Of a DNA stretch of 64,000 bases, positions 1,117-61,878 are shown piece by piece. A model generated the notes under the pieces. That model saw nothing but the letters and a program-made list of their open reading frames with translations. It did not search any database and had not been told where the DNA came from. Source of the DNA: a virus; IMG/VR virus record IMGVR_UViG_3300021178_000001, positions 1 to 64,000 of that record; one strand, given 5' to 3'. The translations under genes were made by a program, and so were the position numbers. The first letter of the stretch is position 1. Every line of letters starts with the position of its first letter.

Positions 1117-4020
1117 ATGACCTACGACGAACTCACATCTAAACTCCTCAAAGCTCCCTCCGACCTAGGATGGGCGGACGCCGGCGCGTCGTTGGCGACC
1201 GAGAACACCGACTCTCTCCTCAACCGCGTGGAGGACAAGTACTTCGTGTCTAAGAAGCACTTGAACGAACTCGCCTCAGAACTCAAGAAGAACTTGAAGG
1301 ACGGAGAGAACGACACCCACGCTCGGTTCAATCGGAACCGCACGATTTACTTGGATACTCCCGACCTCGACTGCTTCAAGGACGCGGTCTCGGGCATCAA
1401 GCCTCGCTTCAAGATGCGCGTTCGCCAGTACGCTCCGAACGACAAGCCCTTCGAAGACGTGGCTTACTTGGAGCTCAAGATCAAGACCGAGACCGGACTC
1501 ACCAAGAAAACTCGCTTCCGCATTCCGGCTTGGATGGTCCACGACATCTCGAACGGCAAACCAATTCCGACCAACGACGAGTTGGTCAACCTCAACCGCG
1601 AGATCACTCCCGCGGCGCTGACTCACCGCATCGGAGTCATCAACTCAGTTTTGTCCAAGTATGGTTTCCGTCGCCAGGTCGTGGTCGAGTACCAGCGCCG
1701 GGCCTACTCCAACGACGACGTTCGTGTGACCGTAGACGACTACCTGATGTACAAGGACAACCGACCCGTCGTCGAAGAGATAGAGAACGTCTCGGGCTGG
1801 AAGAGTGTCTCAAAGGTATCCGACCGTCTCAAGAACAACAACATGCTGATTCTCGAAGTCAAGCACAAGTCCGCTCAACCCCCGTGGATTTCAGAGCTTC
1901 TCAAGAAAGTGGAAGCCGAGCCCGTAAAGTTCTCGAAGTACTGCGCCGCTATATACAGCATGGTCGAAGATCCCAAGAAGTCGGACTCGGGTTCGTTGAC
2001 TCGCAACACGGTGATAGACATCGCGCCCTTGATGACTCTGTTCGAAGACGCTTCTCCGATGCAAAAGTCAACGAAGAAAGACTTGGCCAACATAGCTTAC
2101 GTAGTTCTTCGCGACAAGAACTTCGTCTTGGTCGGCAAGCGAAAGAACAACGACAAGTGGGGTTTACCCGGAGGTCGTTTCGAAGACGGAGAAGACAAGG
2201 AAGAAGTCGCGCTTCGCGAACTTAAGGAAGAGACCGGGATTAAACTTAAGTCCGGAGACTTGACTTACGAAGGTAAAAAGGTAGTTGAGACGGACGACGA
2301 GATCAAGACCGTTTACATTTTTTCTGGAAAGCATCCCGGAGGAGAGCCTGAGACGAAGGACGACGAGTTCTCCAGCTGGGAGTGGATTCGCTGCGAGAAC
2401 GGGATGCTGCCGGCTAAGATCTTAGAAGACAAGATGAACGGCCCGACCGAAGCCGCGTTTGAGAAGATGGGCCTCACGAAAGCAGAACCGATGAATAAAG
2501 CCGTGTCAAAGAAGACTCTATTTTACGTGTGCGTCGTTCCTATCAACTCGATGGGCCAAGTGTTGCTCGGCGAGCGCAAACAAGACGGCATTTGGACTAC
2601 TCCAGCCGGTGGAGCAGATCCCGGAGAATCTCCGGAACAAGCCGCCGTGCGCGAGGCTTGGGAAGAAGCTGGACTAGCCGTCATTCCCTCGATGCTCGAG
2701 TCCATCGGCATCAAGGAAGCTCCGAACGGAAAACCAGTTCACTGCTTCATGGTCCGCACCGACCAAACAAATCTGTCGGTCCGCATGGATCCAGACAAAG
2801 AAGTTGCGGCTTGGAACTGGTACTCGCGAGAAGATCTTCCAGCCGGTTTGTCTCGTCAGAAAAACGCCAACCGCTTGACCACGATCACGAGGGCTCTCAT
2901 GAAGTTCTACGGTTTAACTAAGGCAGAATTAGAAATGGATTCTTTGACAGACAAGCTGAACAAAGGTGGTCCCGGATCGGGTCAAGCAGGTCATATGACA
3001 GCCAAGAAACCGGGACACCCCCAAGTCGGCGGATCTACTCCCGAAGCTCCGACCGTCAACAAAGTCAAGGCTCACTTAGAGCTTCTCCGCAACGGCAGTG
3101 TTCTCCCCGGAGTCCACACCGCGTCCGGTAAGCCTATAGTGACGAGCATGGACTCGGCGAAAGCTCAAGGGTACGACGAGCAAGACCACGTCGACGCCAT
3201 GAACGTGCACTACAACATGGCTCAAAAAGTCAACGCCACGATCGAGAAGATGAAGATGGCCGGTAAAGAAGTCCCCAAAGAAGCCCGTGAGATAGCTAAG
3301 TTTCACGAGAAGCAAATGAAGGCCAACATGGCCGCTCGCGACCACTTAGAGGACCAAAAGAACGTGATGGCTCAGCGCAAAAAGAAACCGATCGCCGCAG
3401 TAAAGAAGTCAACCACTCAGATGGGATCCGGACTCGGAGACCGCGACTTAGACGTCGGTCAGTACGCTCAGACTCGCGCCCACGCCGACCGAGAGTGGCT
3501 GGAGAAGCTGTACGTAGGCATGGAGAACTCCCACTTCGGTGACTCTCCCGAGCACTTCCATACCGACAAGGGCGTATTACACTTGTGCAAGGTGGACGAC
3601 GGCTTGTACTCCGGCTTCTTCACCAACCAAGAGCTGGTGGGCGACGGGATGCTCCAAGACAACGCCAAAGTCCGAATCGAGCGCATCACGATTCCAGAAC
3701 TAGTTCAGTTCATGACCGCCAAAGAGTGGATCAAACCGGCCTTTGAGGACATTCCAGTCGCGCCGCCCGAACCCGTTAAAAAAGAGTTCAACGAGGGCGG
3801 ACTTCCCGCCATGTTCTCCGAGACGGCCCCGAGCGCCGCTTCAGAACCGCTCCAGGGCATCAAAGAGCCCAACTCTGTGGCCGTAGTCAACAGCCCAATA
3901 ATGGAGTCGTTGACCGAAAAGTTAAGTTCTCCTCCCCCTTCCGTTCCCAACATAGTTCAATTCGAAGTCAACGAGCAAAAGATCCGGATGCTGGAGCTAG
4001 TCTCCAAATTGTTGAGTTGA
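1117..4020 (+). CDS. VTC domain - Nudix - Nudix fusion protein, probable virion or head-region protein
   Basis: Residues about 35-290 match the VTC/triphosphate-tunnel polyphosphate polymerase fold: VEDKYFV, IYLDTPDLDCF, RFKMRVRQY, YLELKIKTE, VVVEYQRRAY, VRVTVDD and LILEVKHK supply the tunnel Arg, Lys and Glu residues. Two Nudix domains follow, at about 320-455 and 468-600, each with a full GX5EX7REUXEEXGU box (GRFEDGE...RELKEETGI and GADPGE...REAWEEAGL), so both should bind metal and hydrolyse a nucleoside diphosphate-X bond. After KGGPGSGQ (about residue 617), a linker seen in phage head proteins, the last 350 residues are unassigned and partly coiled coil. The start abuts the endonuclease stop. 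Domain calls are firm; substrate and virion location are inference. Confidence 0.85.
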   Translation: MTYDELTSKLLKAPSDLGWADAGASLATENTDSLLNRVEDKYFVSKKHLNELASELKKNLKDGENDTHARFNRNRTIYLDTPDLDCFKDAVSGIKPRFKMRVRQYAPNDKPFEDVAYLELKIKTETGLTKKTRFRIPAWMVHDISNGKPIPTNDELVNLNREITPAALTHRIGVINSVLSKYGFRRQVVVEYQRRAYSNDDVRVTVDDYLMYKDNRPVVEEIENVSGWKSVSKVSDRLKNNNMLILEVKHKSAQPPWISELLKKVEAEPVKFSKYCAAIYSMVEDPKKSDSGSLTRNTVIDIAPLMTLFEDASPMQKSTKKDLANIAYVVLRDKNFVLVGKRKNNDKWGLPGGRFEDGEDKEEVALRELKEETGIKLKSGDLTYEGKKVVETDDEIKTVYIFSGKHPGGEPETKDDEFSSWEWIRCENGMLPAKILEDKMNGPTEAAFEKMGLTKAEPMNKAVSKKTLFYVCVVPINSMGQVLLGERKQDGIWTTPAGGADPGESPEQAAVREAWEEAGLAVIPSMLESIGIKEAPNGKPVHCFMVRTDQTNLSVRMDPDKEVAAWNWYSREDLPAGLSRQKNANRLTTITRALMKFYGLTKAELEMDSLTDKLNKGGPGSGQAGHMTAKKPGHPQVGGSTPEAPTVNKVKAHLELLRNGSVLPGVHTASGKPIVTSMDSAKAQGYDEQDHVDAMNVHYNMAQKVNATIEKMKMAGKEVPKEAREIAKFHEKQMKANMAARDHLEDQKNVMAQRKKKPIAAVKKSTTQMGSGLGDRDLDVGQYAQTRAHADREWLEKLYVGMENSHFGDSPEHFHTDKGVLHLCKVDDGLYSGFFTNQELVGDGMLQDNAKVRIERITIPELVQFMTAKEWIKPAFEDIPVAPPEPVKKEFNEGGLPAMFSETAPSAASEPLQGIKEPNSVAVVNSPIMESLTEKLSSPPPSVPNIVQFEVNEQKIRMLELVSKLLS

Positions 4021-10399: not shown

Positions 10400-11791
10400 T
10401 CACGACAGCTCGTCGTCTAACTCGTTCTTTTTCTTCATCTTGTCTAGTCCCTTGTTCTGCACTAAACGAACCCCCATCTTAGTCAAGCCTACAGACTCCG
10501 CTATTTGCTGGAGGGTCATCTCTTCGTGAGGCTCTCCGATGCCGAAACGCAACCGGATGATCTTCTCAGTGCGAGGCGGCAAGGTGCCCAATATTTGACG
10601 GATCTTCTCGCGCAGCAGTTTTTTAGCGGTCAAGTTGAACGGATTCTCGGTGCCGTCCGAAGGCAACACGTCCAGCATCGTCACGCCGGTAGACATCTCG
10701 TCCTCGATCCCGACCTTGTGCACCGCGATTTGATCTAGTCGCTCCAAGACTTCGACCGTAACCTTGGCCTTGACCGCGATCTCTTCTTTCGAGGGAGTTC
10801 GGCCGAGTTCGTTCGTAAGCTTAGTCACGATAGTCGAAAGTTGAGTCTGCAAGAACTCGATGTGAGTCGGGATGCGAACCGTTTTGGACTTGTTCGAGAT
10901 GGCGCGGCGAATGGTCTGGTCGATCCACCAAGTCGCATGGGTGCCGATCTTGGCGCCGCGAGTCGGATCGTGCTTGTTGATGGCTTTAATCAAGCCGATG
11001 TTACCCTCTTGGACCAAGTCGTCGAAGTCGAGTCCCCGGTTCGAGAACTTCTTGGCCCTCGAAATCACCAACCTCAAGTTGCGGCGAATCAGCTCGTCTT
11101 TAAACTTCTTCATCTCGGTTTCGGAGACCGTGATCGACGTGTACAGCTTCTTCACTTCGGCAAAGTTTTCCTTCGAGATGCCAGAGTTCTCTATGACCTT
11201 GAGTGACGCCGCGTGCTCGACGCACTCGTGGACTCGAGCCATCAGGCGCTGTTCCGTCGTCTCGAACTTGCGCACGAAGTAAGTCTTGGCCACGTCGCTG
11301 GTCTTGAGGTTTTCTACGAGTCCCAAGAGGTCCGAGTGAGTCGTCAGCTCAAAGTACCGCAGCAGCTCGACCAGCTTGCGCTCGTAGTCGTTGACGGCGG
11401 AGAACTTCTTCTTGATCTGAGAGACTAGAGCGTGGATGAGAGTGCTGGACAACGACACGGCGGCCAAGTGAGTGTCGATCTCGGACTGGACGAGGTCGTC
11501 TTCCAAGGAGTCGACCAACCGGCTGAAGGAGGACGAGACGGAAGCCACTTCGGTTTTGCTCGACTCGTCGTTCAAGCGCCTCGAAATCTTCACGATGTCC
11601 TCGAGACTCTGAGACTTCAATAGTTCCAAGAGTTCGTTCTTGAAGAACTGCGACGATGCGCACTCGTGCAAGATCTTGTTCTGCCGGGTCTCGATGTTGT
11701 TCAAGAGAACGTCTTCCTCATTTCTGGTGAGTAAGGGAGTCTCGTGGAGCTGCGACAAGTAAAACTTAAGGCTAGAGTCTTGATGGTCCAA
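10400..11791 (-). CDS. Primary-type sigma-70 RNA polymerase sigma factor
   Basis: 463 residues. Region 1.2 (FYLSQLHETPLLTRNEE), a divergent helical insert (about 60-220), region 2 (RRNLRLVISRAKKFSNRG, DDLVQEGNIGLIKAI, HATWWIDQTIRRAI), region 3 (VRIPTHIEFLQTQL, ELGRTPSKEEIAVKA) and region 4 (LPPRTEKIIRLRFGIGE, then a helix-turn-helix TLQQIAESVGLTKMGVRLVQ) are all present. It should direct host RNA polymerase to phage promoters. In E. coli RpoD the 4.2 recognition helix reads TRERIRQIE; here it is TKMGVRLVQ, so the -35-contacting Arg-Glu pair is gone. Start is TTG at 11791, with GGAGG six bases upstream. Divergent from the dUTPase gene. Confidence 0.93.
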   Translation of the reverse strand: MDHQDSSLKFYLSQLHETPLLTRNEEDVLLNNIETRQNKILHECASSQFFKNELLELLKSQSLEDIVKISRRLNDESSKTEVASVSSSFSRLVDSLEDDLVQSEIDTHLAAVSLSSTLIHALVSQIKKKFSAVNDYERKLVELLRYFELTTHSDLLGLVENLKTSDVAKTYFVRKFETTEQRLMARVHECVEHAASLKVIENSGISKENFAEVKKLYTSITVSETEMKKFKDELIRRNLRLVISRAKKFSNRGLDFDDLVQEGNIGLIKAINKHDPTRGAKIGTHATWWIDQTIRRAISNKSKTVRIPTHIEFLQTQLSTIVTKLTNELGRTPSKEEIAVKAKVTVEVLERLDQIAVHKVGIEDEMSTGVTMLDVLPSDGTENPFNLTAKKLLREKIRQILGTLPPRTEKIIRLRFGIGEPHEEMTLQQIAESVGLTKMGVRLVQNKGLDKMKKKNELDDELS

Positions 11792-21693: not shown

Positions 21694-22101
21694 ATGTCTA
21701 AAGTCTTGTCGGGGTCGAAGGCGGCTCTAAAAATCAACGGTGTAAAGATAGGTTTCGTGGGATCTGTGACCATCAACGAGGACAACACGTTGACGGACAT
21801 CGACATCATCGACCAACTGGAAGTGGGCGAGCTCGCGGAGACAGCCCACAAGGTGTCCTTCAGCTGTAACTTGTTCAAAATAGACGGCAACTCGGTGTCT
21901 CAGCTCGGAATCAGACCGGATGCAATCAGAGACATCTTGACTCAGCCTGAGCTCACGATGGAGCTCTACAACTCAGTCGAAGATAGGGTTGAGTATACAA
22001 TTTCAGGGGTTAAGTGGCAGGGCGGGAGTGGCACCCTGGATGCACGGGGTGTCTGGCAAGGTTCATGGAATTTTAAAGGAAGAATTGGCACTGGAATGTA
22101 A
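21694..22101 (+). CDS. Tail tube protein
   Basis: 135 residues. GSKAALKINGVKIGFVGSVT and the beta-rich pattern ending in YTISGVKWQGGSGTLDARGV and GSWNFKGRIG fit the small tail tube proteins of contractile-tailed phages. Gene order (after the sheath, before chaperones and tape measure) agrees. SD AAAGGAGAATAGGT. A strong terminator follows. Confidence 0.75.
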   Translation: MSKVLSGSKAALKINGVKIGFVGSVTINEDNTLTDIDIIDQLEVGELAETAHKVSFSCNLFKIDGNSVSQLGIRPDAIRDILTQPELTMELYNSVEDRVEYTISGVKWQGGSGTLDARGVWQGSWNFKGRIGTGM

Positions 22102-22173: not shown

Positions 22174-23301
22174 ATGGAAAAGCTATGTAAGTCTTGTCTT
22201 TTGTTAAAAGATGAGTCGAAATTTCATAAAAGAAAGTCTTCACCCGACGGTTTAGCTCCAACTTGTAAAGAGTGTAGAAGTGCTGGTGAAGCTAAGTTTA
22301 GACTTAACAACGCAACTCGACTTCCAGAACTAAGAAAAGAATCTTATCGTAGAAACCGTAAAACTATATTAGCTCAAAAGAAAGAATACCACTCACTCAA
22401 CAAAGAAGCTATAAACACAAAGTCTAAGATTTGGGCTCAAGAAAATCGTGAGGAAAGCAACGCGAGACGCCGCGAAGATTATTCTAAGAATCCAGAGAAA
22501 TACAAAAAGAAGGTTAAGTCGTACGTCGACAGAAATAAAGAAAAGGTCACGAAGTATCGCACGAAATATTCGTGTGAAAGAAATCGTACGGACATTGAAT
22601 TTAAGCTTACTAGAAGTTTGCGATCTAGGATGCATCACGCCGTAGTCGGGAACCAAAAGGTTGGTTCCGCCGTCGACGACTTAGGATGCTCCATCGAAGA
22701 CTTTAAGACTTACATCAGCAAGCAGTTCAAGCCTGAAATGACTTGGGATAACTATGGTCCCGTGTGGCACCTAGACCACAAGAGGCCTTTGACTAAGTTT
22801 GCTCTCGAAGATCGCTTGCAGTTCTTAGAAGCCGCCCACTTCACTAACTACCAACCCATGTTTAAGTCCAACAACGTAAAGAAAGGCAACCGCCTCCCCA
22901 AAGTCTACTTTGTTTTTGGCTTGTTCGGCTCCGGCAAGACTACCTTAGTTAATTCCCTCAAGGATCGATTTCACGTCTTCTCGTACGACCAGTTCAGGTC
23001 ACACCCGATGGACGAGTTGACCAACCCTCCGGACTTCGACGTTCCTTCGTTGTACGAGACCCCGATGCTCGTGGGATCGTTCCTGAAGCGGTCCCGGGAG
23101 TTATTAGACGTGACCCCGATCTATCTCCGGGAACCCCTCGAAGTCATTCTGCAAAGGATCGAAGCTAGAAAGGGTGAAGTCGACGCCGAGCGGTTGGTCA
23201 AGCGAGCTCGGAGATTCGAGTCTTTGGCGCGGAAGTACGGCGCCTTCGTCGGGAACTACGCGGAAGTGGAAGAGTTCTTGAAGTCTAACCAAAAGAAATA
23301 A
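22174..23301 (+). CDS. HNH endonuclease fused to a P-loop kinase-type domain
   Basis: 375 residues in two parts. Residues 1-247 are an HNH homing endonuclease: Cys pair CKSC...CKEC, basic middle, then LGCSIEDFKTYISKQF, TWDNYGPVWHLDHKRPLTKF and HFTNYQPMFKSNNVKKGNRL. Residues 248-375 are a compact P-loop domain starting VYFVFGLFGSGKTTLV (Walker A), with REPLEVILQRIEARKG like zeta-toxin or small-molecule kinases. The HNH part ends at the same residues (KKGNxLPK) where the 320-residue HNH protein at 20156-21118 stops, so the kinase begins exactly at the HNH terminus. The 5' half is AT-richer than the 3' half. Confidence 0.82.
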   Translation: MEKLCKSCLLLKDESKFHKRKSSPDGLAPTCKECRSAGEAKFRLNNATRLPELRKESYRRNRKTILAQKKEYHSLNKEAINTKSKIWAQENREESNARRREDYSKNPEKYKKKVKSYVDRNKEKVTKYRTKYSCERNRTDIEFKLTRSLRSRMHHAVVGNQKVGSAVDDLGCSIEDFKTYISKQFKPEMTWDNYGPVWHLDHKRPLTKFALEDRLQFLEAAHFTNYQPMFKSNNVKKGNRLPKVYFVFGLFGSGKTTLVNSLKDRFHVFSYDQFRSHPMDELTNPPDFDVPSLYETPMLVGSFLKRSRELLDVTPIYLREPLEVILQRIEARKGEVDAERLVKRARRFESLARKYGAFVGNYAEVEEFLKSNQKK

Positions 23302-23641: not shown

Positions 23642-23819
23642 TCATTTTTGGTCTCTGATAGAAACGTCCATGACGTAACCGTTCAAGCGCTTAGCTCTTC
23701 TGTAGGCCTTAACTCTATTATGATAAGCGCCGCCGCCGCGGAAAGAGAACCCCCTCTACTGCGTGGTCTACCACTACTACAAATAGCACAGTTTTCTTTT
23801 TCTTAATAATATTTTTCAT
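23642..23819 (-). pseudogene. Small gene with an apparent frameshift in a G5 run
   Basis: The ATG at 23819 makes an ATGA overlap with the upstream gene. The next gene's SD (GAGGG) follows a TGA at 23642-23644, as if one gene of about 58 codons filled this space. The frame breaks: from the ATG it ends early after 33 codons. Removing one G from GGGGG (positions 23750-23754, C on the + strand) restores a frame ending HNRVKAYRRAKRLNGYVMDV. A third frame has CAICSSGRPRSRGG, so two indels are another possibility. It may be a sequencing error or a dead gene. Confidence 0.4.
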
Positions 23820-24034
23820 TTCAACAGCCCAACCGCGTTTTGTAAACGGGACCTATATACAATGTCAGTTTCTAGTTGAAAATCTCCCACTTCGGAATCC
23901 AAAGATTTCTCCTTAGAACTGACGAAACTTGATTTTCTCTTGAACGCTTCGGTCTGACAATAATTATTTAGAGTCTGACCAATAAAATCCAGTTGATCTC
24001 CGTAAGCGCAGTCAATGATGTAAGATAAAAACAT
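23816..24034 (-). CDS. Hypothetical protein
   Basis: 72 residues (MFLSYIIDCAYGDQLDFIGQ...). No domain recognised. It has a short hydrophobic N-terminus and a charged middle (FKRKSSFVSSKEKS). Start is one base past a small upstream gene; stop overlaps the next ATG. Confidence 0.5.
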   Translation of the reverse strand: MFLSYIIDCAYGDQLDFIGQTLNNYCQTEAFKRKSSFVSSKEKSLDSEVGDFQLETDIVYRSRLQNAVGLLK

Positions 24035-24035
24035 A

Positions 24036-24140
24036 CTATGCCGCTCCGTTCGAAACCATCATGTATAAAACTCCTAAAGTCACTGCCGCGATTATCATCG
24101 TGACGTACGTTTCAGTCTCCACGGTTAGTCTCGCTTCCAT
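24036..24140 (-). CDS. Micro-membrane protein
   Basis: 34 residues with one transmembrane segment (YVTMIIAAVTLGVLYMMV). It starts at ATG 24140 inside the end of the upstream gene; an alternative in-frame GTG would give 28 residues. No good SD, so translation probably depends on coupling. Confidence 0.45.
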   Translation of the reverse strand: MEARLTVETETYVTMIIAAVTLGVLYMMVSNGAA

Positions 24141-24313
24141 CTGTCTATGCTGCGGTCCACCATGTCGAATAGCCCTTGCTCTCCGTGGATCAACCTAATC
24201 AGGTGGTACGTTACGAAGTCTAGACTGAGAGTTAAGGTTCCCGACCTTCCGTCGGCCATCTTGACGACTAACCTAGCTACGTAGAATAAACCCTCGCGCT
24301 TGTAAGGATTCAT
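24125..24313 (-). CDS. Hypothetical protein
   Basis: 62 residues starting at 24313 (MNPYKREGLFYVARLVVKMA). This start is preferred to ATG 24322 because GAGGG is 9 bases upstream and the ATGA overlap is exact. Contains a TLTLSLDFVTYHLIRLIHGE stretch. Function unknown. Confidence 0.5.
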   Translation of the reverse strand: MNPYKREGLFYVARLVVKMADGRSGTLTLSLDFVTYHLIRLIHGEQGLFDMVDRSIDRWKRD

Positions 24314-24576
24314 TTGTTCCATCCCTCGGTGTATTCCTTCTCAGTCATGGGTATGAAAACAAAACAGTGATTCTCGCATAGTTCCCGAGCGTTCTTCTCC
24401 AGTAAGTTGTTGACCATCCTGAATCTAAGAAGCAACCTTTTGTCCTCGAACTTCTCCGAGATCACCCACAGCTTGAGCACTTCGCCGTCGTCCAAAGACT
24501 CTACTCCGACGTAGCTCGGTTCTAACTCTTTCAGAGCTTTCTCAACGACGCGCTGAGTCTTGCCTTTTCTCATCAT
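24310..24576 (-). CDS. Hypothetical protein
   Basis: 88 residues starting MMRKGKTQRVVEKALKELEP. GAGGG lies 8 bases upstream of the first ATG, and the start overlaps the upstream stop. A long N-terminal open extension exists but overlaps three real genes and is rejected. Beta-alpha pattern (VLKLWVISEKF, LLLRFRMVNNLL); no family recognised. Confidence 0.55.
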   Translation of the reverse strand: MMRKGKTQRVVEKALKELEPSYVGVESLDDGEVLKLWVISEKFEDKRLLLRFRMVNNLLEKNARELCENHCFVFIPMTEKEYTEGWNK

Positions 24577-24713
24577 TTGATCATCCCTCGGTAAGTCGCC
24601 AAGGCGACGGGGTAAATACAAAGCAACGTGACTCCCATCCATGGGGCAACTCCCGGCGCGATCCAGAAGTTTAGAACGTTGGCTAAGATGCACGCTATCA
24701 CTAAGTGTTTCAC
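24573..24713 (-). CDS. Small membrane protein with two transmembrane segments
   Basis: 46 residues (VKHLVIACILANVLNFWIAP, then MGVTLLCIYPVALATY). GTG start directly follows the upstream TGA; GGGGAAG lies upstream. The stop overlaps the next ATG. Confidence 0.5.
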   Translation of the reverse strand: MKHLVIACILANVLNFWIAPGVAPWMGVTLLCIYPVALATYRGMIK

Positions 24714-24893
24714 TCACTTCCCCTTTATGCAAAAAGCGCGGGTTGGCGGACCTATATAACCCTGAAGCATCAGCTTCGTGTCGTCGAACACGTTCATCTT
24801 GACTTTGCAGGACGACTCCGACGCTACGGGAATCAACTGAGAGGTCATTCCTCCGGCTCCGGACACAAACACTAGCAGTAAGTACCAAGTCAT
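24714..24893 (-). CDS. Small secreted protein
   Basis: 59 residues. N-terminal signal peptide (MTWYLLLVFVSGAGG) and a mature part with two Cys (SSCKVKMNVF...AFCIKGK) that could form a disulfide in the periplasm. ATGA overlap with the upstream gene. Not recognised. Confidence 0.5.
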   Translation of the reverse strand: MTWYLLLVFVSGAGGMTSQLIPVASESSCKVKMNVFDDTKLMLQGYIGPPTRAFCIKGK

Positions 24894-25042
24894 CTTCGAT
24901 TCTCCTTCTCGTAAGTCTCGTAGTCAGAGTCCACGTCGGCGTATTCCATCGGAACCGTCTCGTTGTCGCACTCCGGACACAGCAAGTCGTCGGCTTGATG
25001 TACGCAGGTCTCACAAAACTTGCACCACTGGTCACTGACCAC
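24890..25042 (-). CDS. Small zinc-ribbon protein
   Basis: 50 residues from GTG 25042, with AGAGG seven bases upstream. CKFCETC and CPEC supply four or five Cys for a zinc ribbon. The acidic C-terminus (EYADVDSDYETYEKEN) is probably disordered. The longer frame to 25108 would run through the upstream gene. Function unknown. Confidence 0.55.
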   Translation of the reverse strand: MVSDQWCKFCETCVHQADDLLCPECDNETVPMEYADVDSDYETYEKENRR

Positions 25043-25283
25043 TTGTATACCTCTGAGATGGGCTAACGATCCAATGTACACCATCTGTAGATGTGTGCAT
25101 AATGCCATCTTTAGTCAAAGCAATCCAATCTATCGGGCTTCTTTCATAAAGAACTGTCCAATCGTTCTGAGATTCTTTTAAAACTACGTTTTTTTGTTCG
25201 TTATTTTTCTCAGTAACGACGTCGCACCAGTCGCTGTGTCTGTTAGATCCAACGCTGGAATTTCCGCACGTGCACTTCGCCAT
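25032..25283 (-). CDS. Small protein with CxCG...HSDWC zinc motif
   Basis: 83 residues. The N-terminus MAKCTCGNSSVGSNRHSDWC repeats the motif found at the C-terminus of the 15374-15667 product. The rest has a beta pattern with WTVLYERSPIDWIALTKDG. Starts shortly after the upstream stop. Function unknown. Confidence 0.55.
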   Translation of the reverse strand: MAKCTCGNSSVGSNRHSDWCDVVTEKNNEQKNVVLKESQNDWTVLYERSPIDWIALTKDGIMHTSTDGVHWIVSPSQRYTSGQ

Positions 25284-25284
25284 A

Positions 25285-25452
25285 TTAACTCACCAAAGCT
25301 TCTAGCTCGTCGATCAGGCGCTTCGCTTCCGCCATGTCGTCTTCGAGCTGTTTGAGTCCGTCTTCGAAGCGCTTTCGAGCTTCGATAGCTGTAAGCTTCT
25401 CGCGGGGACCTTGGGGCACTGTAAAACCGCAGTTGTTGTTCGTCGCGCTCAT
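25285..25452 (-). CDS. Small coiled-coil protein
   Basis: 55 residues starting at 25452 (MSATNNNCGFTVPQGPREKL), with AAGGAG six bases upstream. The C-terminal two thirds is one amphipathic helix (EARKRFEDGLKQLEDDMAEA). Function unknown. Confidence 0.55.
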   Translation of the reverse strand: MSATNNNCGFTVPQGPREKLTAIEARKRFEDGLKQLEDDMAEAKRLIDELEALVS

Positions 25453-25466
25453 GTTAGACTCCTTGA

Positions 25467-25721
25467 TTATGCAGCCAAAGTTTTCCACTCTATTAATTGT
25501 TCTTGAAACTGCTCTCCGAAGAGCAGTTTCACCTGCGACCCAAGCATGACGGCGTGGCTGTACTGGGTCTTTCTGACTTTGCACCAGTCACGCTCTATTT
25601 CGTTCAACTTCATGTTCTTCTTGACTATGTTGCCGTGCTTGTCGTAAGTGCGGGCGGTCTCAACGTCTGTTTGGCCAGTTGCTTTTACTAGCTCCAATAG
25701 AGCAAACCCAACGAATTTCAT
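25467..25721 (-). CDS. Hypothetical protein
   Basis: 84 residues (MKFVGFALLELVKATGQTDV...). SD GGAGGA. Pattern NEIERDWCKVRKTQYSHAV; no family recognised. It follows a 100-base gap, so it may have its own promoter (TATATTCTCAC at 25742-25752 also occurs upstream of the 41-43 kb island). Confidence 0.55.
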   Translation of the reverse strand: MKFVGFALLELVKATGQTDVETARTYDKHGNIVKKNMKLNEIERDWCKVRKTQYSHAVMLGSQVKLLFGEQFQEQLIEWKTLAA

Positions 25722-25822
25722 AATTAGTTCCTCCGTACTTCTATATTCTCACGCTCGCGAACAAAAGCAAAGTTAAAACACATAGAACTCGCATTTAAGT
25801 GGCTCCTTTCGGAGTCACTCAC

Positions 25823-25999
25823 TCAGGCTTGTTTCTTCAACTCTCGGTACTTGAACCTAGTTGACTGGGGATCGTTGGTGATCTCGCCCAACAGAGTCTC
25901 GCTGTTCGAGATCAGTCGCTTGACTTGATTCTGACGGCGCTCGTCGGTTGAGTGAAATCTGGCTTCTTTTCTTAAGGCTCTAGCTTTCTTGAGGTTCAT
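25823..25999 (-). CDS. Small basic protein
   Basis: 58 residues, helical and strongly basic (MNLKKARALRKEARFHSTDE, RRQNQVKRLI). AGGAG is six to eight bases upstream, inside the end of the preceding gene. It could bind nucleic acid. Function unknown. Confidence 0.55.
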   Translation of the reverse strand: MNLKKARALRKEARFHSTDERRQNQVKRLISNSETLLGEITNDPQSTRFKYRELKKQA

Positions 26000-26000
26000 A

Positions 26001-26255
26001 CTAACTCCTGTTGTTTTTCTTGACTTCTGTTATTACCGAATCTATCCGTCTTAAAATCTCTTTTTGGTTCGAGACGACGAAGCTGTGGGACTTTGCGATC
26101 ACATCCGCGGTCTGTTGCTGACGATCCATCAAGACGTTGTTGTTCCAAAGAACTACGACCATCAACATGAAAGTCAGTGGATCGAACGCCAACAAATGGA
26201 ATCGCATTCCAGCCACGACTAGCACTAGTAGTATCAAAGCTATTCCCCACTTCAT
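26001..26255 (-). CDS. Membrane protein with cytoplasmic coiled tail
   Basis: 84 residues. Two hydrophobic segments at 4-19 (GIALILLVLVVAGMRF) and 27-37 (FMLMVVVLW) are followed by a helical polar tail (EILRRIDSVITEVKKN). It lies directly downstream of the cytochrome gene (ATGA overlap), so a joint membrane role is possible but unproven. An overlapping frame of the same length is a shadow. Confidence 0.55.
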   Translation of the reverse strand: MKWGIALILLVLVVAGMRFHLLAFDPLTFMLMVVVLWNNNVLMDRQQQTADVIAKSHSFVVSNQKEILRRIDSVITEVKKNNRS

Positions 26256-26578
26256 GACTTAGCTCCTTGTTCTATCCACTTGCGAATCAGGTCTCGTTCT
26301 TTGTCGTCGATCTCGTTGCCTAAAGGCGGCATATTCTTGAACAAAATAACTCGCATCTTTATTTCAGCGGAATGCTCTTTTGCTATCGCGTAGTTAGTCC
26401 AATCGGTGGCGCCTACGTGACATTTAGAACACCTGGCACCGAATATGGGGCGCACCGCCGCGAACCCAACGTCGTCTGTGACCGAGTTATCTAACGCTCT
26501 TTCGTCGAAGTAGCAGTTGATGGCCCATGTCAGAAAGAGCAGTCCGAGCCCAGACACCAGCGCGACCGACTCTCTCAC
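26252..26578 (-). CDS. Membrane-anchored c-type cytochrome
   Basis: 108 residues. An N-terminal anchor (VALVSGLGLLFLTWAI) puts the rest in the periplasm. The heme-binding motif CSKCH lies near residue 50, preceded by VRPIFGAR. The distal part KNMPPLGNEIDD offers the axial Met, and KERDLIRKWIEQGAK is the closing helix typical of short c-type cytochrome domains (W-I-x-x-G-A). It should carry one covalent heme and transfer electrons, and needs the host cytochrome c maturation system. Neighbours are a subtilase and membrane proteins. A c-type cytochrome in a phage is unusual. Confidence 0.78.
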   Translation of the reverse strand: MRESVALVSGLGLLFLTWAINCYFDERALDNSVTDDVGFAAVRPIFGARCSKCHVGATDWTNYAIAKEHSAEIKMRVILFKNMPPLGNEIDDKERDLIRKWIEQGAKS

Positions 26579-26805
26579 GCGACCTTCGCGTCGCGCACGG
26601 TGTACATGAAGTGACCGAAGACTCCGAACTCGGCGTAGTCGTCGTCCAAACGGTTGAGCTCCAACACGGCCACTTCAACTTGGTCGAACTTCAAACCCAA
26701 CCTCGTGCACTCTCTCACGATTGAAGTAAGAGATCCCTCGTACGCCGGACCGTTGTTCACGTGGATCTGGTACCTGCCGTTCTTTAAATCTCTAAGTCTG
26801 TACAT
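26575..26805 (-). CDS. Hypothetical protein
   Basis: 76 residues (MYRLRDLKNGRYQIHVNNGP...). Single small alpha/beta domain: YQIHVNN, SLTSIVRECTRLG, VAVLELNRL. Between the subtilase and cytochrome genes and coupled to the latter by ATGA. Not recognised. Confidence 0.55.
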   Translation of the reverse strand: MYRLRDLKNGRYQIHVNNGPAYEGSLTSIVRECTRLGLKFDQVEVAVLELNRLDDDYAEFGVFGHFMYTVRDAKVA

Positions 26806-26836
26806 GTTATTTCCTCCGAGACTTTGTTACGTAGTC

Positions 26837-27793
26837 TTACTTTATCAAGCTAACTTTGGATCGCAAAGTCATTTTTTTAGCCGCTAGTAAAGCTCGATAA
26901 GCGTTGACTTTTCCACCGCTCGAAACTTTTCCCTTCAAGCTTGGCTTGCGGTCTACTGACTCCGATATGACTCTAATGACTTCTTTCGGCATTAGTCCCG
27001 GATACTTGGACAAGATCATGGCCGCGATTCCAGCGACGAATGGAGCGGCTTGACTGGTGCCGGAAAAGTATCCGTAACCGCCTCCCGGAACGGTCGAGTA
27101 TATGTTCTCGCCCGGAGCCGCAACTCGAACGCGCTCGACGCCCCAATCCGACATCGACCAAAGTTGCCCAGTTATCGTCGTTGCAGCAACCGACAAAATA
27201 TTGGGCAAGTCGTAAGAAGCGGGATAGTAAGTAAACGTGTCCAAACTCCAACTCTCGTTGCCGGCCGACGTCACGAACAAGATGCTCTTCTCGTTTGTTT
27301 CTTTCACGGCCTCGAGTTCGTCGGGCGAGAACTCAGACCCTCCTCCCGAGTAGTTTATGATCTCGGCGCCGCGACTTATACAATAGCGTATAGAACGCAC
27401 GAGGTTTGATAGATTCTCGGATCCGGAGTTAGCGTCCTTGAAGTACTTGACTGGAATCAAGCAAGCCGTGGGAGAGACCGCCCGGATGATTCCCGCGACG
27501 TGGGTGCCGTGGCCGTTGACGTCGATCGGGTTCTTTCTATCGGCGACGAAGTCCCAGCCGTACTCGCCCGTGTTCGGACAAATTCGATCTTTGAGGTCTG
27601 GGTGGGTCACGTCTATCCCAGTGTCTACGACGCACACCTTGACTACTCTACCGCCTCGGGCTAGTTTCCAAGCTCTCGGAGCGTCTACGTGAGAGCTCCA
27701 CTGAGCGTTGTACAAACCCCAGTTTTTAGTCAGCGGACCCGCCAAAGCTGTACTGTTAATAATCATTAACATTATTAAGATCTCGGTTCTCAT
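26837..27793 (-). CDS. Secreted subtilisin-like serine protease (S8)
   Basis: 318 residues. Signal peptide MRTEILIMLMIINSTALA. The catalytic triad is complete: Asp in VCVVDTGIDVTHPDL, His in NGHGTHVAGI, Ser in GTSQAAPFVAG. Oxyanion Asn is in TSAGNES. No obvious long propeptide precedes the WGLYNAQW start typical of subtilases, so it may need little processing. It should act in the periplasm or outside the cell. First gene of the reverse island, with its own promoter. Subtilases are rare in phages; transfer from a bacterium is likely. Confidence 0.9.
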   Translation of the reverse strand: MRTEILIMLMIINSTALAGPLTKNWGLYNAQWSSHVDAPRAWKLARGGRVVKVCVVDTGIDVTHPDLKDRICPNTGEYGWDFVADRKNPIDVNGHGTHVAGIIRAVSPTACLIPVKYFKDANSGSENLSNLVRSIRYCISRGAEIINYSGGGSEFSPDELEAVKETNEKSILFVTSAGNESWSLDTFTYYPASYDLPNILSVAATTITGQLWSMSDWGVERVRVAAPGENIYSTVPGGGYGYFSGTSQAAPFVAGIAAMILSKYPGLMPKEVIRVISESVDRKPSLKGKVSSGGKVNAYRALLAAKKMTLRSKVSLIK

Positions 27794-27809: not shown

Positions 27810-27837
27810 ACTATACCACTCGACGTCGCGGTTGCAA
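27810..27837 (-). promoter_or_regulatory. Promoter of the subtilase-cytochrome island
   Basis: On the - strand TTGCAA (27832-27837), 16 bases, then TGGTATAGT with TATAGT at 27810-27815. The leader is about 10-15 bases. Confidence 0.5.
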
Positions 27838-27864
27838 ACCTAATGTTTCGCTCAACTGTATACT

Positions 27865-27911: not shown

Positions 27912-28352
27912 ATGAGCAAACTCAGCAACATTGGGAAAGACATCCCTGCGACTGAATCTGACTTCGTGGTGGAAGTCGAGGGCGAAGTGACCAAGAGACG
28001 TTTTATAGGAGATTTCAGCTGCAAGATTCCTCGCAAGAAAGAACAGTGCCTAATCGACAAGCACCGAGCTTTCTTGAACGGTCCTCAACCCGAGCAACTC
28101 TCTCCCGAGACTCTTCGGTTCCACCACATGATCTCGTACTTGAGGTACACGCTGGACGACAAAGGGTGTCCGAAGTGGTGGAAGGAGTCGGATCTGGGAT
28201 ACGAGCTGTACGACGAGAACGTAGTGAAGAGCGTCTACGACAAAGTTTTAGAGTTTGAAGTCGAGTGGTTGAAGGCCGTTTGGGGTGAAGAAGCCGTGAA
28301 CAAGTTGCAGACGGGTAAAGAAAATGACGAAGCCAAAGAAAAAGGAACCTGA
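27912..28352 (+). CDS. Putative tail assembly chaperone, first frame
   Basis: 146 residues. No signature motif. It is placed between the tube and the tape measure, where contractile- and long-tailed phages encode a pair of overlapping chaperones. It overlaps the next gene by 29 bases in the +1 frame. Charged C-terminus (KENDEAKEKG). The role is inferred from position only. Confidence 0.5.
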   Translation: MSKLSNIGKDIPATESDFVVEVEGEVTKRRFIGDFSCKIPRKKEQCLIDKHRAFLNGPQPEQLSPETLRFHHMISYLRYTLDDKGCPKWWKESDLGYELYDENVVKSVYDKVLEFEVEWLKAVWGEEAVNKLQTGKENDEAKEKGT

Positions 28353-28737
28353 CCCATTCGAGAGCTTGAAGTATCGGGGATACTGCTGGGCTTTCACGGA
28401 ACCGGGAGAAAGGTACACTCTCGAAGAGTTCATCAACTTCGCCAAGTTCTTCTTGTGCAAGCAAACGAAGACGCTGTGGAAGGATCCGATTTGGGACCGC
28501 TACACGGACGAAGAGATTTTAGTGGAGTACTTCGCGCATTTGTTCTCGATGGACAAGAACGCTAAACTGGATTTTGAGGTCTACGCTTTTTCGGGTTCAG
28601 ACGTGTACGGTGAGGATATTTACAGTTGGTTGGATCGTAAGATAGAAGAGAATCAAGCCGAAACTGCTAAGAAAATGGAAGAGATGCCCGACAAGGTGTC
28701 GTTTTCACCAGAAAAGAACAGAGATCGAGAGGAATAA
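28324..28737 (+). CDS. Putative tail assembly chaperone, second frame
   Basis: 137 residues, acidic and aromatic (YRGYCWAFTEPGERYTLEEF). It starts inside the previous gene with only a weak SD, so coupling or a +1 (or -2) ribosomal frameshift between 28300 and 28352 could produce a fusion, as for the G/GT pairs of other phages. No obvious slippery heptamer is visible. Confidence 0.5.
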   Translation: MTKPKKKEPDPFESLKYRGYCWAFTEPGERYTLEEFINFAKFFLCKQTKTLWKDPIWDRYTDEEILVEYFAHLFSMDKNAKLDFEVYAFSGSDVYGEDIYSWLDRKIEENQAETAKKMEEMPDKVSFSPEKNRDREE

Positions 28738-60255: not shown

Positions 60256-61878
60256 ATGCAAAAACAGATCATAAACGCCAAAGACTTCCTTCAGTCCAAG
60301 ATGGACGGCATGGCTGAACTAGCCGACATCGTGAAGAAGACCTTGGGTCCCGGAGGTCTTCCCATAATTTTAGAACGAGTCGGGCAAGCGCTCGACGGTT
60401 CACCCTTGGGTCCAAAGATCACCAAGGACGGCGTCTCGGTAGCCGAGGAGTGCGCTTCTGAAGACAAGGCCAAAGACGTCGTGATTCAAGCCGTAAAGGC
60501 TATTTGCAGAAAAACTAACTCCGACGCCGGAGACGGCACGACTACGGCCATAGTTTTGGGCCAAGCCATTCTTCAAGAAACTCAAAAGATCTTGCAAGAC
60601 GATCCTTCACTCAACCCACAACTAGTCAAGGAAGACATAGAACTGGTGGCTGCGAGAGTCATAGAGAAACTAAAGAGTTTAGCCGTTAAAGTGTCCGACA
60701 TGAAGGCCATCGAGGAAGTTGCGACTATCTCAGCCAACGGCGACCGATCGATAGGTCAAGTCATTCGCATGGCCTTCGAGCACGTCGGAGCCGAGGGTGT
60801 CGTCACCGTGGACGAGGGTTCTGGATCAGAAGTTACTCTAGACGTAGTCGAGGGATACCGCTTCAACCGTGGAGCTCAGTCTAGATCCGACTTCTTCAAC
60901 AACAAGGACCGAACTCACTTCGAAGCTGAGAAAGCCGCGATCGTCTTTTTTGACGGCAAACTACTCAACTTCACCGACATTATCCCGACCATTCAGTTGT
61001 TGGCCGGAGTCGACAAGGAAACTGGACAAGCTTCCAAGAAGTTGCCGCCAGTCATATTTGTGGCCAACGAGTTCAGTCGCGACGTGATTCAGTTCATGCT
61101 GATCCAGAAGATGGAGCGCGGAATGCAGCTGTGCGCCATCGAGGGTCCTCACATGAGTCACGTGAGAACTGGATACTACGACGACATGGCGGCTTACACC
61201 GGTGGAAGTCGGTTGGGTAACGGAGCTAGGTCACTCTCGGCCATCATAGAAGAGGACATCGGGTACATAGACAAGATCGTTTCGGACCAGTACAAAACGA
61301 CTATGTACGAGGGCAACGGTTCGGAAGAGTCAGTCTTAGAGCGAGTAGATCAGTTGAAAGCTTTGAAGGCGAAAGCCGAGAGTCCGTACGACGCTCAAGT
61401 CGTGAACGACCGCATCGCCGCGCTCACTAACGGAATCGCGAAGATCGGCGTAGGCGGAGCCACAGAACTAGAGATCAAAGAGAAGTACGACCGCATCGAG
61501 GATGCTCTCAACGCCTCGCGAGCCGCGATTCAAGAAGGAGTGGTAGTCGGAGGCGGAGTAACCCTCCTAAGAATAGCCGTCGAGATGTCTCCCGATTCCG
61601 TCGGAGCTAAGATCATGCAAAAAGCTCTGCAGTCGCCGTTTCGTCAGATCTTGGACAACATCGGTCTCAAAGAAGATGCAGTCAACGACATCGCGCTGTT
61701 AGTTTTAGAAGAAGAAGGAACCATCTACGACGCGCGGGATAAAAGAATTAAGAACGCCTCGGAAGCTGGTATCATAGACCCAGTTAAGGTTACTCGAACG
61801 GCGTTGGAGAATGCTGTCAGTATCGCAGGTTTGCTGAGCACCGCGGGTGGTGCGATTGTCTACAAAAAAGATAAGTAA
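60256..61878 (+). CDS. groEL: GroEL-type chaperonin
   Basis: 540 residues, the full bacterial GroEL length. KTLGPGGLP (ATP-binding P-loop), DAGDGTTTAIVL, the Asp in the EDALNASRAAIQEGVVVGGG segment (the E. coli Asp398 position) and DPVKVTRTALENA are present. There is no Gly-Gly-Met tail; it ends GGAIVYKKDK. The apical domain is divergent. Only a few large phages carry GroEL, and some of those work without GroES; no groES is in the window. SD CGGAG. It has its own strong terminator. Confidence 0.95.
   Translation: MQKQIINAKDFLQSKMDGMAELADIVKKTLGPGGLPIILERVGQALDGSPLGPKITKDGVSVAEECASEDKAKDVVIQAVKAICRKTNSDAGDGTTTAIVLGQAILQETQKILQDDPSLNPQLVKEDIELVAARVIEKLKSLAVKVSDMKAIEEVATISANGDRSIGQVIRMAFEHVGAEGVVTVDEGSGSEVTLDVVEGYRFNRGAQSRSDFFNNKDRTHFEAEKAAIVFFDGKLLNFTDIIPTIQLLAGVDKETGQASKKLPPVIFVANEFSRDVIQFMLIQKMERGMQLCAIEGPHMSHVRTGYYDDMAAYTGGSRLGNGARSLSAIIEEDIGYIDKIVSDQYKTTMYEGNGSEESVLERVDQLKALKAKAESPYDAQVVNDRIAALTNGIAKIGVGGATELEIKEKYDRIEDALNASRAAIQEGVVVGGGVTLLRIAVEMSPDSVGAKIMQKALQSPFRQILDNIGLKEDAVNDIALLVLEEEGTIYDARDKRIKNASEAGIIDPVKVTRTALENAVSIAGLLSTAGGAIVYKKDK

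Follow-up and report, generated by a model that had tools for sequence, protein, structure and literature searches.

A predicted membrane-anchored c-type cytochrome encoded in a tail-region cargo island of a large contractile-tailed phage, with relatives in Bdellovibrionia

What use might a contractile-tailed phage make of a small c-type cytochrome? The question is raised by one open reading frame in the window, the 64,000-nucleotide stretch analyzed here (bases 1 to 64,000 of the 114,255-bp IMG/VR virus record IMGVR_UViG_3300021178_000001). Cyanophages carry photosynthetic electron carriers such as plastocyanin, and phage-borne electron carriers are seldom reported outside photosynthesis. In the phages of one study of nitrogen-cycling viruses, no electron carriers such as cytochromes were seen (PMC8115048). 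An earlier note on this DNA had called a haem c protein an unusual phage cargo, and its rarity held up: there was no match in 50,697 GenBank phages or in PHROGs, nor among INPHARED phages when the queries were the cytochromes of the window, of the related phage G003 (see below), and of host bacteria, together with an artificial class I probe of generic design.

The note had also taken the gene to be carried by a phage, and the record agrees. It encodes capsid, portal, terminase, tail sheath, baseplate, DNA polymerase, helicase, and GroEL proteins and is a genuine, large, contractile-tailed phage. The gene of interest lies in an island of antisense cargo genes set among the tail genes, with the following layout.

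21694-22101, plus strand: tail tube-like gene, named by its position after the sheath gene and 54 to 61% identical in relatives; left border of the island
23816-27793, minus strand: antisense cargo island between the tail tube and tail chaperone genes
26001-26255, minus strand: 84-aa putative membrane protein, downstream neighbor of the cytochrome gene
26252-26578, minus strand: predicted membrane-anchored one-haem c-type cytochrome of 108 aa (Pfam, AlphaFold2, PDB profile search, and homologues in L231 of phage G398 and in L226)
26575-26805, minus strand: 76-aa protein, upstream neighbor of the cytochrome gene; similar proteins are encoded in this island in L222 and L224
26837-27793, minus strand: gene for an exported subtilase (PF00082, E = 7e-45) that opens the antisense run
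27810-27838, minus strand: extended -10 promoter-like site directly upstream of the subtilase gene, a possible promoter of the antisense run
27912-28737, plus strand: overlapping gene pair assigned to tail assembly chaperones from position only; bounds the island on the right
from 28741: putative tape measure gene, named by position only

The reading frame, whose position is exactly that given in the earlier note, begins with a GTG that overlaps the TGA of its upstream neighbor (GTGA, 4 nt) and ends with a TGA that overlaps the ATG of its downstream neighbor (ATGA, 4 nt). Overlaps of this kind commonly mark genes that are translated as part of an operon. The 76-aa neighbor had no PHROG match of note, and the promoter scan that marked the site upstream of the subtilase gene gave no more matches than in shuffled sequence. 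Exported subtilases are also encoded in the corresponding antisense island of L222, L224, L226, and L227/L228, with only 27 to 37% identity where compared.

The protein itself had been described as a small anchored cytochrome c domain with its motifs in the right order, and each of these elements was found again, with CSKCH, NMPP (residues 82 to 85), and KERDLIRKWIEQGAK (residues 93 to 107) following a hydrophobic helix. All the elements below are on the minus strand.

26495-26557, minus strand: N-terminal hydrophobic anchor, residues 8 to 28 (AlphaFold2 helix, hydropathy)
26417-26431, minus strand: haem-binding motif CSKCH, residues 50 to 54 (direct reading; invariant)
26327-26332, minus strand: Met83-Pro84, with a putative sixth ligand of the haem (read directly; unchanged across 43 phage and Bdellovibrionia domains and in alignment A6)
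26270-26305, minus strand: C-terminal helix, residues 92 to 103, with the invariant Trp101 (AlphaFold2, alignment)

This is the sole CXXCH-containing reading frame of at least 40 aa called in the 114,255-bp record. Shuffled phage proteomes gave 0.11 CXXCH reading frames each, and the full CXXCH...MP...W..G pattern appeared in 0 of 300 shuffles, so the motif set is not a product of chance. On its own, the protein matches Pfam Cytochrome_CBB3 with E = 0.00096, below the curated cutoff. A family profile built from alignment A6 and run with hmmsearch against the PDB finds class I cytochromes (FoxE at E = 1.2e-9, c552, c6, c551, and CcoP), and nearly all of the 55 PDB sequences at E < 0.01 are c-type cytochromes or enzymes containing them. 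AlphaFold2 predicts a transmembrane helix at residues 8 to 28 and four further helices in a cytochrome-like order (pLDDT of 85 for the whole protein and 95.9 for the domain alone). Foldseek against BFVD and the PDB returned no cytochrome match, whether the query was the full model or the domain alone, the models being without haem and the domain minimal. The best 17-residue Kyte-Doolittle mean is 2.02, starting at residue 4. Cys22 is preceded by WAIN, by eye not a standard lipobox, although lipid anchoring through this residue may occur. Taken together, sequence and model point to an exported, anchored c-type cytochrome, with the membrane topology and the covalent haem both predicted.

Because the earlier note held that homologues without the Cys or Met would speak against a cytochrome, such homologues were sought; none was found. 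CXXCH and MP are present in all 123 collected domains, both phage homologues included, where CXXCH was a condition of collection and requiring MP and Trp removed no row. Across the aligned domains, both Cys residues, the His, the Met, and the Trp are invariant.

A search for related genes in the same phage group, which the note had proposed, proved fruitful. Neither the single window protein nor alignment A1 retrieved the phage homologues in direct IMG/VR scans; the relatives were reached through capsid and tail-tube searches instead. Two contigs carry homologues with CXXCH, one of 115 aa in G398 (IMGVR_UViG_3300024265_000033, 121 kb) and one of 99 aa in L226 (IMGVR_UViG_3300033553_000270, 22 kb). 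All three cytochrome genes share a location, the antisense island that runs from the tail-tube gene to the pair of small genes preceding the putative tape measure, in phages whose tail sheaths are only about 47 to 58% identical to that of the window phage. The copies are 35 to 42% identical to each other over their best aligned stretches, and every haem ligand is kept. The gene is found in only 3 of the 11 island-spanning contigs and is thus dispensable; the exported subtilase is in about half of the same contigs. Anchors vary as well: they are of the transmembrane type in the window and in G398, where by eye there is no Cys at the lipobox position, and include a lipobox-like SVSC in L226. In a tree of 95 columns, a Bdellovibrionia clade with a support of 97 includes the G398 copy, the window copy is placed without support, and a single clade of the three phage copies is not rejected (p-AU of 0.51). 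With so few columns, the tree neither rejects nor establishes that the phage copies have one origin.

Another member of the group carries a cytochrome of a different kind. G003 (119 kb, with a capsid protein 67% identical) encodes a nonhomologous class I lipoprotein cytochrome (L126:12948-13280) that meets the Pfam Cytochrom_C cutoff and is 42 to 54% identical to its best Bdellovibrionia matches. Its gene sits outside the island, upstream of the tail completion gene and downstream of a gene for a 391-aa lipoprotein. It thus resembles the window protein in being small, one-haem, predicted to be exported, borne by a phage of the group, and related to proteins of Bdellovibrionia, but differs in subfamily and genome position. 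No cytochrome was found in G399, of which 100 of 101 kb were read. The island of G003 equivalent to that of the window contains a 2OG-Fe(II) oxygenase-family gene (L127:581-1423) whose product has no evident signal peptide.

Where might these genes have come from? Plasmid and genome searches led first to the C-terminal cytochrome c domain of the urate hydroxylase PuuD, which is 25 to 35% identical and shares an MP..N......ER motif with the window protein. PuuD also has a large N-terminal membrane domain; the window protein has only 108 aa and lacks that domain, and an identity as PuuD was rejected. The best match in the all-genome pattern scan, which served as the cross-class comparison for the window protein, is a Bdellovibrionales lipoprotein (L012). 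Among 144 genomes of the class Bdellovibrionia, the window protein matches 45 (best E = 2.8e-12) and the G398 homologue matches 56 (best E = 4e-22). The cross-class control was run with the G398 homologue, whose best E values were 1e-10 in 247 Acidobacteriota and 3e-5 in 274 Gammaproteobacteria. A profile-profile comparison of alignments A4 and A1 was uninformative, as the query was in both. The phage cytochrome gene is thus most likely host derived, from Bdellovibrionia-type bacteria, and the kinship of the cargo genes, which is what the host assignment rests on, suggests that the phage probably infects predatory Bdellovibrio-type bacteria. A search for capsid relatives in 369 genomes of the phylum Bdellovibrionota found none.

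The Bdellovibrionia relatives that were read (L096-L125 among them) are mostly lipoproteins that carry between one and three haem motifs, and some are fused to a c4-like diheme part. Their one-haem domain shares with the window protein PIFxxxCxxCH, (N/D)W..Y..A, R.....K.MP, and ER.LI..W...GA. They are exported and mostly lipid anchored through a lipobox, often with two or three haem domains or the diheme fusion, and they occur in a cassette, whereas the window protein has one domain, a transmembrane-type anchor, and, by eye, no standard lipobox. In 9 of 10 host neighborhoods viewed, the relative adjoins a homologous exported protein of ~400 aa that has a single CXXCH and a hydrophobic, barrel-like C terminus, and a c4-like cytochrome of ~100 aa is often present too (L249:3460-5793, L250, L251, L252, L246-L248, L254, and L255). 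Neither Pfam nor NCBIfam gave a significant match to the ~400-aa family; the sign of a barrel is one weak BBP2 match (E = 0.023). We read the ~400-aa protein, the lipoprotein cytochrome, and the c4-like cytochrome as a candidate envelope electron-transfer cassette with a putative barrel component. This cassette, though conserved, appears to be undescribed in the open-access literature searched.

With this background, we consider it somewhat better than an even bet that the phage gene supplies a host-derived, exported electron carrier that joins the periplasmic chain of the host during infection. Exported CXXCH apoproteins receive haem from the host Ccm or Ccs system and, with His/Met ligands, carry single electrons. 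The N-terminal helix would take the protein through the Sec pathway and tether it to the membrane with its domain in the periplasm, where the host cytochrome c maturation system would attach one haem at CSKCH and Met83 would complete His/Met coordination. The phage would need no maturation genes of its own, since the host system supplies the haem, and none was found among the identified phage genes. The gene would descend from Bdellovibrionia-type cytochromes whose domain works beside other envelope c-type cytochromes, and the additional, phage-controlled carrier would dock on the host periplasmic chain, with a c4-type protein or an oxidase as its partner, so that respiration and ATP supply could go on while host gene expression is shut down. 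That the host relatives are joined to or lie beside c4-like cytochromes gives indirect support for a role with a respiratory or periplasmic partner. The functions proposed in the earlier note, namely keeping respiratory electron flow going or feeding electrons to a periplasmic partner, thus look plausible from the family relationships. A bolder version, in which a contractile-tailed lineage of Bdellovibrionota phages repeatedly gains single-haem envelope cytochromes that join or take over the host trans-envelope cassette and rewire extracellular or periplasmic electron flow, we regard as speculative and on the whole doubtful. If it were true, a virus would be rewiring electron flow in a predatory bacterium.

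Other explanations share much of this evidence. The protein could be a c-type cytochrome that acts not in respiration but as a dedicated redox partner, or as a peroxide or radical sink, for envelope proteins of phage or host. The neighboring genes, for small membrane proteins and an exported subtilase, would suit such a role, as would the oxygenase, another redox cargo, in the island of G003. A subtilase needs no electrons, however, the window island has no identified redox enzyme with a matching exported partner, and the G003 oxygenase seems not to be exported, which together make this account rather improbable. Alternatively, the phage protein might mimic one subunit of the host cassette and occupy the complex, for example, blocking a surface protein in superinfection exclusion, with haem needed for folding only. 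Llp of phage T5 is a phage lipoprotein that blocks a receptor; the L226 and G003 versions are lipoprotein-like, and in 9 of the 10 host genomes viewed the relatives adjoin the exported ~400-aa CXXCH protein. Yet the proteins of the window and of G398 resemble inner-membrane proteins with transmembrane anchors rather than outer-membrane lipoproteins, and the barrel nature of the ~400-aa protein is taken from weak signs, so that we judge mimicry distinctly unlikely.

It is less probable still that the gene is a passenger picked up from hosts in a cargo hot spot, without a role in infection. The hypervariability of the island and the presence of the gene in a minority of spanning contigs are what one would expect of a passenger, but every haem ligand has been kept while the phage copies diverged, carriage is repeated and includes a nonhomologous cytochrome, and the gene overlaps both neighbors tightly. 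Least probable by far is that this is no haem protein at all but a small helical protein in which CXXCH is structural or coincidental: the lack of a Foldseek cytochrome match and the subthreshold Pfam score would fit, but the shuffling results, the PDB profile matches, the export-type N-terminal helix, and the invariant His and Met all oppose it.

Comparison with known systems places the protein more closely. It shares CXXCH, the distal Met, and the C-terminal helix with FoxE, c552, c6, and c551; relative to solved class I cytochromes c, its CXXCH-to-Met distance is short (29 residues from His to Met), and no Foldseek match was obtained. Auxiliary metabolic genes as a kind are already known, and the window cytochrome is a variant of that kind, a metabolic gene of apparent host origin on a verified virus contig with a homologue on a 121-kb phage contig. 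Viral SoxD, reported with other sulfur auxiliary metabolic genes, is likewise carried by phages and belongs to an electron transfer enzyme that contains cytochrome, and in two viral contigs it lacks one or both cytochrome motifs (PMC8190135). SoxD is an enzyme subunit, unlike the window cytochrome. The case of cyanophage plastocyanin is alike in that the phage supplies a small exported electron carrier, as the window phage would, although plastocyanin is a copper protein of photosynthesis rather than a haem c protein and the hosts are different.

In the one phage group examined here, small c-type cytochromes of two unrelated subfamilies occur in four contigs, with haem ligands kept at about 40% identity. 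The earlier note had neither the host link nor the phage homologues, and such recurrence of a c-type cytochrome in one phage group appears to be undescribed in the open-access literature searched. It suggests that viruses of this group contribute a component to the electron transfer chains of infected cells, and recurrent cytochromes that conserve their ligands make it a testable question whether phages control respiratory electron flow in a nonphotosynthetic host. The kinship of the cytochromes is also a host lead, toward predatory Bdellovibrionota, for a group of large tailed phages.

Several other genes of the window merit mention. The gene at 1117-4020 encodes a protein with a VTC (polyphosphate polymerase) domain and, after it, two NUDIX stretches, and a sigma-70-like factor with matches to regions 2, 3, and 4 is encoded at 10400-11791. 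Free-standing homing-endonuclease-like genes (GIY-YIG and endonuclease VII/HNH-like) lie among the structural genes at 187-1116 and 22174-23301 and at L003:16561-17664. The GroEL gene at 60256-61878 encodes a protein 36 to 38% identical to the best GroELs of the phage collection, and in the relatives that cover its region this phage GroEL is conserved at 52 to 71%.
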